The position numbers and the translations under genes were made by a program. A stretch of DNA of 64,000 nt from the NCBI RefSeq assembly GCF_000246985.2, contig NC_022084.1, forward strand, positions 367,994 through 431,993, in the 5' to 3' direction. Shown here piece by piece: positions 19,460 to 40,753 of the stretch. This DNA comes from Thermococcus litoralis DSM 5473. GTDB taxonomy: Archaea; Methanobacteriota_B; Thermococci; Thermococcales; Thermococcaceae. The notes under the pieces were generated by a model, which saw only the letters and a program-made list of their open reading frames with translations, did no database searches and was not told the DNA's origin. How positions within the stretch are numbered: the first letter of the stretch is position 1; every line of letters begins with the position of its first letter.

Positions 19460-20305
19460 TCAAAAGCTCAGAAGATCATCAAGTGCCTTCAAAGCCCTAT
19501 AAGTATTTTGGAAGTTTGAAATCCCCATTTCAAGACTCCTTCTGAAGCCCCCATTGGGATTTTGAAGGGCTCTTATGAACCTTATGTGAGGTTCTATGTA
19601 CCGAGGCTTTTCGTTAATAAGCCTCAAGCCCCTAACCGCATAGAATGTCGGCTCCAAGTAAGGCGGAAGAGAGTAAGGCACCTCAGTAAAGCCACCGTAA
19701 ACTTCGCACCTGTGGAAGTGTCTCGTCTTTGGAACTGGATATCCCAGTGCGTTGAGTGAAAAGATCGCTTGATAAGTCATGGTTGTTGTTGCCTGCGTTA
19801 CTCCATACCCTTCTCCTTTTCTAAAGCTTTCGATGAAGCCCTTTATCTTTCTTCTCTCCTCAGAGGAAACTTTGTAATCTATTGCTTTAAAAGCTCTAAG
19901 TACCCAGTAGGTTGCTTCAAGTGGTGTTGCGGTTCCGAATTCCTCGCTTCCACCGAGACCAACGGCAAATTTGCCTTCGATGGGTTTATATTTCTCAAAG
20001 ACCAGTGAAAGTCCTTCTTTTGCGAGGTCTTTTGCCCCTAGAATTGCGAGCCCTTCAATTGCCATAGCTATTGCGACAACAGCCTGTTGGGGTTTTAGTG
20101 AATTATAGAGGAACTCTACGGTTTTTTCTTTCTCTGGAATTTCAATGTCCAGCAAATCGTAGATTTTAACCGCGTAGTAGGTGTCATTTATGTTTGTCTC
20201 ATTTAGCAGGGAAACAAAGCAATAGCCACCGTCTTCGTGCCTTCTATCCTCAATATACTTTAAAACTGATCTAAGATCTACATAGTTTCCTAGCTTCGAG
20301 CCCAT
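19460..20305 (-). CDS. Prenyltransferase/squalene-cyclase-like alpha-alpha-barrel protein
   Basis: 281 residues of repeated helical hairpins with the QW-like repeats seen in prenyltransferase beta subunits and terpene cyclases: HEDGGYCFVSL, GGSEEFGTATPLEATYWVL, KGEGYGVTQATTTMTYQAI, and NPNGGFRRSLEMGISNFQNTY (each under twenty residues of core). No DXDD cyclase motif is evident, and the Cys/His zinc site of farnesyltransferases is not obvious, so activity is open. It is the first gene after the fluoride riboswitch, 22 bases before crcB; its presence in a fluoride operon is unusual. GGAGG lies before ATG 20305. Confidence 0.75.
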   Translation of the reverse strand: MGSKLGNYVDLRSVLKYIEDRRHEDGGYCFVSLLNETNINDTYYAVKIYDLLDIEIPEKEKTVEFLYNSLKPQQAVVAIAMAIEGLAILGAKDLAKEGLSLVFEKYKPIEGKFAVGLGGSEEFGTATPLEATYWVLRAFKAIDYKVSSEERRKIKGFIESFRKGEGYGVTQATTTMTYQAIFSLNALGYPVPKTRHFHRCEVYGGFTEVPYSLPPYLEPTFYAVRGLRLINEKPRYIEPHIRFIRALQNPNGGFRRSLEMGISNFQNTYRALKALDDLLSF

Positions 20306-20334
20306 TCTACCGCCTCCTAAAGTTTTAGCGGAGA

Positions 20335-20400
20335 ACAGGCGTCATCAGCCCTTAGCGGGCGGTTCGGGCTCGAAGCCCCGGGCGGACGCCATCGCCCAAA
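20335..20400 (-). ncRNA. Fluoride riboswitch (crcB motif)
   Basis: On the minus strand: GGGCGATGGCGTCCGCCC, a GC hairpin with a CTTCGAG-type loop, AACCGCCC, then GGGCTGATGACGCC. These are the fluoride aptamer's conserved parts: the GGCGATG start, the pseudoknotting GCC elements, GGGCTGATG, and GGCGTC pairing with GACGCC. It lies between a TATA box (GCTTATAAAAT, about 20417-20428) and the first gene of the crcB operon, so the RNA starts almost at the aptamer. The ribosome site GGAGG of the first gene follows about 20 bases later, so control of translation is plausible in this archaeon. Confidence 0.93.
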
Positions 20401-20415
20401 GGCAAATTCTTAGGT

Positions 20416-20431
20416 AATTTTATAAGCTTTT
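20416..20431. promoter_or_regulatory. Shared TATA region between the fluoride operon and amzA
   Basis: TTTTATAAGC reads as a TATA box in both directions. Leftward it sits about 25 bases before the riboswitch start; rightward it sits about 45 bases before the archaemetzincin ATG. No second TATA candidate as good is seen in the gap. Confidence 0.5.
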
Positions 20432-38456: not shown

Positions 38457-40753
38457 GTTCCAATAAGACTTTAAAAGAATTGAAATTAGAAAGAAAAGAG
38501 GTCAGTGATTTTGTTTCAAGTATAAGTTCCAATAAGACTTTAAAAGAATTGAAATATATTAAAGATTCCCCTACCGTTAACCCGTCTAAAAGTTCCAATA
38601 AGACTTTAAAAGAATTGAAATTCATTAGCCAGATAGACACCATAGAACACCTAAAAACGTTCCAATAAGACTTTAAAAGAATTGAAATGAATTCGAAGTT
38701 TTAGTCGTAAAAGACAAAGAAGAAGGTTCCAATAAGACTTTAAAAGAATTGAAATTCAACGAACCAACACCATACACCACGAACGTACCCCTGTTCCAAT
38801 AAGACTTTAAAAGAATTGAAATCACGTGATAACATAGTCCCCGCGGCGGGGTCGTTAAATAGTTCCAATAAGACTTTAAAAGAATTGAAATTTTCCATAC
38901 AGTTGACCGGGAATTCCCCCTTATGTTAGGTTCCAATAAGACTTTAAAAGAATTGAAATTTTCTCGAAATTGATTTTTAAGCCCACGTGGGCGTAGTAAG
39001 TTCCAATAAGACTTTAAAAGAATTGAAATAATAAATTCTACTACTTCGTCAAGTACATTTTACAAGTTCCAATAAGACTTTAAAAGAATTGAAATCGAAT
39101 TTTCGGGCGTATTCTTCTATTAGCTCTATCACTGTTCCAATAAGACTTTAAAAGAATTGAAATTATTTTATGGCAGTGACTTAATAAGCGTTAGGTTTTG
39201 CCGGAAGTTCCAATAAGACTTTAAAAGAATTGAAATTGATAAACCCCCCTGTATTTGCCGCCCCGAACCGGTGGTTCCAATAAGACTTTAAAAGAATTGA
39301 AATTAAAATACATTGACCTAGAACTTTTAAGCATGCTAGAAAAGTTCCAATAAGACTTTAAAAGAATTGAAATAAAATAACGGGGTTCACGTGAATGTTT
39401 AGCCCCTTTTGTTCCAATAAGACTTTAAAAGAATTGAAATATTGCACCCGTATTATTTCCCTTTGTGTCGTCCATGCTTCGTTCCAATAAGACTTTAAAA
39501 GAATTGAAATTTATTTAACCCATTTAAACCCATTTAATACGGCTTTTCGTTCCAATAAGACTTTAAAAGAATTGAAATATGGGTGCCGGGAATCAATGAA
39601 AACTTAAAAATCCAGTTCCAATAAGACTTTAAAAGAATTGAAATTTAGAATAGTGTACACTTTTTAACTAAAAAATGAACGGTTCCAATAAGACTTTAAA
39701 AGAATTGAAATAGCGACTTCTCAATGGACACGCCCGTCGCGAGGTTCGTGTTCCAATAAGACTTTAAAAGAATTGAAATCACTACTTCGGTCACTTGATC
39801 AGAGAGCCATTCTGCAAGTTCCAATAAGACTTTAAAAGAATTGAAATGTGTTTTTGCGATGTATTCAATCTTCATGCGAGTAAATGAGGAAAAGTTCCAA
39901 TAAGACTTTAAAAGAATTGAAATACTATCCCGCTTTGTGAGGTTTTAGACGCTACGAACTGTTCCAGTTCCAATAAGACTTTAAAAGAATTGAAATTCAT
40001 GAAACTCATCACCATAATGAAACTTAGTTTCATTGTTCCAATAAGACTTTAAAAGAATTGAAATTTCACTTTAACCACCACTTGATGCCTAACCTCTTTA
40101 CGTTCCAATAAGACTTTAAAAGAATTGAAATCCCATTACCCCTCCTTTGAATGTCACGCTCTCGAAGGGTTTTGGTTCCAATAAGACTTTAAAAGAATTG
40201 AAATAATTTCATTAAGGTTCTCATCGTATTTTTTGATAATAAGTTCCAATAAGACTTTAAAAGAATTGAAATAAGTCCTTTTGCTAATGCGATAGCTTCG
40301 TTTACCTTCTCGTTCCAATAAGACTTTAAAAGAATTGAAATTTTTTTTGTTAATTCCCTGAAGATAATTGGGATATTACCACCCGTTCCAATAAGACTTT
40401 AAAAGAATTGAAATAACCTCAATTGCTTGTTTTATTCCTTTCCTAAATTGCGTTCCAATAAGACTTTAAAAGAATTGAAATTAGAACTTATGAAAGCTAT
40501 GTAATTGAAGAGCAGAAAGAGTTCCAATAAGACTTTAAAAGAATTGAAATCAGTAAACTTAACCACGTGTTGAATGTTCTTTTTAATGTTCCAATAAGAC
40601 TTTAAAAGAATTGAAATAGCCCTTTCCCCTAACATCCGCTACCTTTTTGCCCAAATGTTCCAATAAGACTTTAAAAGAATTGAAAGTTTCGATGCCCTTA
40701 ACGTAACTCCCCTCTATTACGGGGTTCCAATAAGACTTTAAAAGAATTGAAAG
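38457..40753 (+). CRISPR. CRISPR array, 34 canonical 30-bp repeats
   Basis: Repeats begin GTTCCAATAAGAC and end AAAAGAATTGAAAT, a Thermococcales-type repeat linked to type I/III systems. 34 copies start at 38457 and recur every 66-76 bases to 40724. The last two (40657, 40724) end in GAAAG instead of GAAAT. The 33 spacers between them are 36-46 bases, mostly 36-40, with longer ones of 43 and 46 in the older half. The 43-base spacer at 39924-39966 ends with GTTCCA, a copy of the first six repeat bases. No cas gene lies within the window, so interference proteins must be supplied from elsewhere. Confidence 0.98.

Follow-up and report, generated by a model that had tools for sequence, protein, structure and literature searches.

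A fluoride riboswitch of the Thermococcaceae accompanies an alpha-alpha toroid gene more faithfully than the exporter gene crcB and has an insert complementary to the first codons of the toroid gene

The window, that is, the whole stretch of 64,000 nucleotides that was analysed, lies in a Thermococcaceae genome of 2,215,172 bases assembled as a single contig. On its minus strand a TATA-like box is followed, in this order, by a fluoride riboswitch, a Shine-Dalgarno sequence, an ORF for a protein of alpha-alpha toroid fold (hereafter the toroid), crcB, and a DUF190 gene. The features are:

20418..20425, minus strand: TATA-box-like element TTATAAAA (within CTTATAAAA at about 20426-20418), presumed promoter from a reading of the sequence.
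20405-20329, minus strand: fluoride riboswitch aptamer (RF01734, crcB motif; cmscan, 50.7 bits).
20385..20390, minus strand: pseudoknot 5' strand GGCGUC (RF01734 match and alignment of 63 leaders).
20366..20379, minus strand: aptamer insert GGGGCUUCGAGCCC, an insert in the RF01734 match and a local hairpin in the ligand-bound form.
20358..20363, minus strand: ACCGCC of the aptamer, overlapping the 5' side of P2; complement of the Shine-Dalgarno GGCGGU.
20338..20343, minus strand: pseudoknot 3' strand GACGCC (RF01734 match and alignment of 63 leaders).
20309..20317, minus strand: Shine-Dalgarno sequence GGAGGCGGU, with CGG replacing the usual UGA.
20293..20305, minus strand: start codon and codons 2-5 (AUG GGC UCG AAG C), proposed strand of an OFF helix.
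20305-19460, minus strand: toroid ORF, 281 amino acids, 846 nt, TK0513 orthologue, PF00432 fold.
19437-19066, minus strand: crcB, Fluc-type fluoride channel (PF02537, 101.4 bits; TIGR00494, 90.2 bits against a cut-off of 80.45).
19061-18681, minus strand: DUF190 (COG1993) gene (PF02641, 132.3 bits).

The first-pass annotation had placed a fluoride aptamer at the very start of the transcript, about 25 bases past a TATA box, and had described its first gene as an alpha-alpha-barrel protein and not crcB, with crcB and DUF190 behind it. The gene order was confirmed, and the second gene exceeded the TIGR00494 equivalog cut-off for CrcB/Fluc. Initiation is predicted approximately 25 nt past the TATA-like element, at the first bases of the aptamer. 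Scans for sigma-70 promoters and bacterial terminators returned nothing above chance, these being bacterial models that are inapplicable to archaea. The check suggested for the aptamer, alignment to the crcB RNA covariance model, gave a full-length match (1-64) with E 4.3e-11 and a score well above the gathering score of 34. In an alignment of 63 leaders the P1 and pseudoknot pairs were present in 100% of cells and the P2 pairs in 98%, and two-sided changes over the aptamer structure as a whole exceeded all 500 shuffles. The RF01734 score, the Pfam match of the ORF and the pair conservation in the 63 leaders rule out a misread aptamer or ORF. The window aptamer has in common with known RF01734 fluoride riboswitches a score above the curated cut-off, P1, P2 and the pseudoknot; it differs from them in that the hairpin insert between P1 and P2 complements the first codons of the regulated gene, and in that the target gene is not an exporter.

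A transcriptome study of Thermococcus kodakarensis reported the crcB RNA "surprisingly" upstream of TK0513 and not of crcB (TK0514), which has a separate transcription start (Jager et al. 2014, PMC4247193). The arrangement at the TK0513 locus is orthologous to that in the window, and the same order stands in genome G045. The paper covers one species, and in the portions of it consulted no analysis of the function, family or expression platform of TK0513 was found; the literature searched yielded no other paper on this gene. Thus the riboswitch before TK0513 was already known in one species, while the complementarity of the insert to codons 1-5, and of the aptamer ACCGCC to the Shine-Dalgarno sequence, is new here. 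According to a passage of PMC8241225 that cites Speed et al. 2018, the fluoride riboswitch of archaea presumably acts on the translation of genes for fluoride export. No description of a fluoride riboswitch expression platform extending into an ORF was found in the literature examined, a set outside which Speed et al. 2018 falls.

Separate searches for the toroid ORF, for the riboswitch, for crcB and for DUF190 covered 115 genomes of the class Thermococci, and the positions of the matches were compared; the class, here identical with the phylum, is the reach of the survey, and one contig scan returned Thermococcales or Thermococci only. A recognisable toroid was present in 90 genomes, and in 88 of these the riboswitch lay 17-64 nt upstream (median 35; 23 nt in the window) on the same strand. 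This linkage is far above chance, and chance adjacency is thereby ruled out. The remaining two were G101, whose toroid is decayed, and G033, which retains only the last bases of the aptamer. A gene-order survey had been proposed in the first-pass annotation, and toroid homologues never found near crcB or a riboswitch elsewhere were to have counted against its placing of the toroid under fluoride control; the survey contradicts such an absence and shows the toroid to be a conserved primary target, with the position of crcB varying from genome to genome.

CrcB is the known fluoride exporter, and known fluoride defence consists mostly of export. The riboswitch could be a switch for the whole operon, having crcB and DUF190 as its real targets and the toroid as an incidental first gene reached by cotranscription. 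Consistent with this, no more than 250 nt separate the toroid from crcB in 15 of the 90 toroid genomes (the window and 14 others), and in another 58 crcB stands further downstream on the same strand, with other genes between. However, crcB is unlinked, elsewhere in the genome, in eight, and in all eight the riboswitch stays with the toroid; in a further nine crcB was not found, some of these being incomplete assemblies. Riboswitch and toroid were mostly still together across the unlinked and not-found groups. For example, G041 and the genomes of the Pyrococcus-like genus g3 have the riboswitch beside the toroid, with crcB-DUF190 elsewhere or gone, and G032 has only a remnant of crcB beside an intact riboswitch and toroid. 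Directly ahead of crcB the riboswitch was never seen in the Thermococcaceae, the sole case among the 115 genomes being G017, of another family. The separate crcB start reported for T. kodakarensis (PMC4247193) and the pairing of the leader with the toroid's own first codons, described below, also speak against a whole-operon switch, which is considered distinctly unlikely. As a general statement, the idea of a riboswitch-led operon centred on crcB is not supported by these counts and the separate start. The riboswitch keeps its place before the toroid even in genomes whose crcB has relocated, and the toroid is taken to be its dedicated target.

Gene loss was seen in both directions. G033 (L088) retains the toroid, but crcB, DUF190 and the greater part of the aptamer are gone; in G101 (L092) crcB is retained, the toroid is decayed, the DUF190 gene is broken and the riboswitch is absent.

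The frequent neighbourhood of the genes had suggested that the toroid physically associates with CrcB/DUF190 or regulates it. Such a role is very doubtful: two genomes in which an intact crcB was not found, G032 and G033, still have the toroid, and G101 still has crcB alongside its decayed toroid. A required partnership is disfavoured by these genomes.

In another family, genome G006 (L080, 2613-5433, minus strand) carries a riboswitch followed by a dynamin-like GTPase gene, a gene of 101 amino acids and a divergent toroid (24% identity, E 2e-10). This riboswitch-led toroid is an independent hint of a fluoride link. Note that the genome-wide PF00432 search was insensitive, missing even the window's own gene, and per-genome toroid counts, such as that for G006, were not relied on.

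The toroid matched PF00432 (Prenyltrans) at 45.2 bits against a cut-off of 26.5, and an AlphaFold model built from 20 orthologues had a mean pLDDT of 90.1 and a pTM of 0.89, with a single-toroid fold; together these place the protein in the alpha-alpha toroid superfamily. A conserved, glycine-rich loop at 115-124 (VGLGGSEEFG) had a pLDDT below 50, which suggests that it is mobile. Foldseek returned matches at probability 1.00, the top ones being 8pak/8paj and the nearest relatives squalene-hopene cyclases and the beta subunits of protein farnesyl- and geranylgeranyltransferases (FTase/GGTase), with 11-17% identity and TM-scores, normalised to the query, mostly of 0.6-0.74. About 100 columns are invariant, many of them polar, and the invariant residues cluster at the repeat starts; the polar ones include R21, H23, D25, N38, N40, D41, E121, E122, E130, Q179, E208, E218, R225, R255, R256, N264, Q266, N267 and R270.

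These matches raise the possibility that the toroid is a terpene cyclase or a protein prenyltransferase, which would limit entry of HF by altering membrane isoprenoids or by prenylating a protein. HF does enter cells by crossing the membrane (PMC11139923). The structural neighbours favour such an activity, but the motifs do not. None of 71 orthologues has the DxDD motif, whose lack had been noted earlier for the window protein, and none of the 71 has the strict QW motif, so that the QW-like repeats of the first-pass annotation prove to be generic toroid repeats (GGY/GGF ... TYYA). The class II terpene cyclases (squalene-hopene cyclase, drimenyl-diphosphate synthase) include the top Foldseek matches, and D-V-D-D of drimenyl-diphosphate synthase aligns to N38-I-N-D41 of the toroid in a weak local alignment (E 0.03); the toroid, in contrast, has NxND where DxDD sits, DxDD nowhere else and no QW motifs. 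The zinc ligands of FTase/GGTase are Asp-x-Cys ... His. Their beta subunits share the single alpha-alpha toroid (TM-score up to 0.74 to the query) and show a weak profile match to it (E 0.001), whereas the toroid, at 13-17% identity, lacks a conserved zinc triad: by sequence comparison, made without structural superposition, the only invariant D, C or H residues are H23, D25, C29 (the sole invariant Cys), D41, D93 and H240, with no D-x-C pair. No alpha-subunit-like gene was seen beside the toroid at the locus. By active-site motifs, membership of either enzyme class is rejected, and many of the conserved repeat-start positions are polar, so a cyclase or prenyltransferase role is unlikely overall. 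The protein is probably an enzyme, and most likely one with a polar pocket.

The aptamer insert, a hairpin of about 13 nt, was found to complement codons 1-5 of the toroid ORF (AUG GGC UCG AAG CU). In the window the insert strand GCUUCGAGCCC (20376-20366) is the exact reverse complement of GGGCUCGAAGC (20303-20293), which comprises the G of the AUG and codons 2-5, giving 11 Watson-Crick pairs. In addition, ACCGCC (20363-20358) complements GGCGGU within the Shine-Dalgarno sequence (20314-20309) and is paired with it in the minimum-free-energy fold. Complementarity of insert and start was seen in most of 70 leaders, and among 63 distinct leaders the pairs of the insert helix were kept in 97.1% of cells and those of ACCGCC with the Shine-Dalgarno sequence in 93.7%; sliding the partner strand by 1-3 columns reduced the kept pairs in the whole helix to 30-50%. 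When the leader was folded, the insert paired with the first part of the coding sequence; the 113-nt leader folded at -55.5 kcal/mol with a z-score of -4.1, where energies were computed with standard parameters and no pseudoknots and extrapolated to 85 C. The mean pairing probability between the start region and the aptamer was 0.71 with the natural codons and 0.19 with synonymous versions, and in 57 of 70 leaders the natural codons out-paired at least 95% of the synonymous versions.

This excess of pairing speaks for a function at the RNA level, as do the synonymous constraint and the correlated loss that follow. Codons 2, 3 and 4 are nearly frozen synonymously (GGC in 69/69, TCG in 66/70 and AAG in 65/65); codons 2 and 3 ranked first and second for lowest synonymous variation among 92 conserved columns of amino acids with at least four codons, and codon 4 ranked first among 60 conserved two-codon columns. 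At codon 5, where the complementarity ends, the third base varies freely. Loss was correlated as well: all 59 leaders with an intact insert motif kept codons 2-4, while five of the 12 that had lost it had changed them (Fisher 6e-5, ignoring relatedness), these five falling in four separate places in the protein tree; the other seven without the motif still keep the codons. The Shine-Dalgarno sequence also departs from the usual, with CG after GGRGG (GGRGGCG) in 57 of 68 toroid leaders compared with two of 92 other genes.

Note, however, that covariation in the long-range helix was not above that of shuffled controls in the 63 leaders, because its bases hardly vary, and the variation seen consisted mostly of G-U changes. 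Since the insert is also backed as a local hairpin in these leaders, including by two-sided changes, its conservation alone does not prove long-range pairing. A local hairpin in the bound form and a long-range helix in the free form would fit a two-state switch, without proving it.

The repeated motif GGCUUCGAGCC might instead serve as a DNA operator or as an RNA site bound by a protein, for instance in autoregulation by the toroid, and not form the two strands of one RNA helix. The motif is near-palindromic and is present in two inverted copies, codons would be frozen by a binding site too, and the covariation result counts in favour of this reading. Yet the one-sided changes within the insert helix (30 cells) all yield G-U pairs, as would suit paired RNA but not a DNA site, and the second riboswitch copies described below lack the insert. 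The aptamer insert GGCTTCGAGCC has no other exact copy in the window's genome; the exact motif occurs once there, and therefore a regulon under such a DNA operator is ruled out. A binding site of either kind seems decidedly improbable.

The locus is thus read, with reasonable though incomplete confidence, as a translational fluoride ON switch dedicated to the toroid gene, a grading that covers the switch and not the class of substrate. Pairing of the aptamer strands with the ribosome-binding site, mutually exclusive with the aptamer fold, is predicted and conserved. Without fluoride, the 3' half of the aptamer region, with the insert strand GCUUCGAGCCC and ACCGCC, would pair with the Shine-Dalgarno sequence as well as with the start codon and codons 2-5, and this OFF helix would block ribosome binding. 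With fluoride, the pseudoknotted aptamer would form, the insert would close on itself as a hairpin and the start site would be released, so that rising fluoride would lead to toroid synthesis. The downstream crcB and DUF190 would act as separate genes with their own Shine-Dalgarno sequences, crcB having its own promoter in T. kodakarensis. The toroid itself would most likely be an enzyme, soluble and made up of a single toroid, whose substrate is polar or phosphorylated, possibly an isoprenoid phosphate, and whose activity is part of fluoride tolerance.

In nearly all relatives of Thermococcus and Pyrococcus the riboswitch directly precedes the toroid gene, and its RNA seems to pair with codons 1-5 of that gene; the toroid protein therefore probably has an overlooked share in the way these organisms deal with fluoride. 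The wider proposal, for which the chances seem evenly balanced, is that the toroid family is a hitherto unassigned fluoride-defence enzyme and the primary fluoride-induced product of the Thermococcaceae, under a riboswitch with an OFF state that zips the aptamer insert onto the first codons, aptamer and coding sequence having co-evolved. Across a whole archaeal family the toroid gene has held on to its own fluoride switch, and with greater constancy than the exporter has. This points to a second defence line, for whose testing T. kodakarensis (TK0513) offers a genetically tractable host. The leader also gives a clear natural example of an archaeal riboswitch with an expression platform that seems to take in the beginning of the coding sequence.

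The genes behind the toroid differ between lineages. A DUF6062 gene is a strict genomic partner, being the next gene, 6-82 nt downstream, in all 55 genomes that have one (for example L066:4865-5566 and L095:3325-4023). Its product is helical, with invariant C17-x2-C20, C55-x2-H58, C103-x2-C106 and C139-x2-H142, and no solved relative was found for the predicted fold. Pyrococcus-like genomes have two small coiled-coil-like genes in place of DUF6062; the window genome has neither, and crcB follows the toroid directly.

A second fluoride riboswitch was observed directly before a HyfC-led operon resembling membrane hydrogenase or formate hydrogenlyase in 14 Thermococcus genomes (L081, L083, L084, L099, L130-L135 and L137-L140); in a fifteenth, G072, it ends with its contig. 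The placement is that described for formate hydrogenlyase genes by Weinberg et al. 2010 (PMC2864571), and the locus is separate from that of the toroid riboswitch, from which its aptamer differs in having no insert. The ORF start here, GUG ACG CC, repeats the pseudoknot strand GAUGACGCC and could therefore compete for the same aptamer loop, which makes it possibly another start-codon expression platform.

Inside crcB of the window, at about 19125-19085, GCAAA[TC]GTTATAAT followed by TTAGT is nearly invariant in nucleotides (codons 105-108). This stretch stands about 50-60 nt ahead of DUF190 and is probably an internal promoter for that gene. Elsewhere in the window, a CRISPR array of more than 30 CRISPR-DR6 repeats occupies 38457-40753, and the C/D-box guide RNA sR47 lies on the minus strand at 47317-47263 (72 bits).
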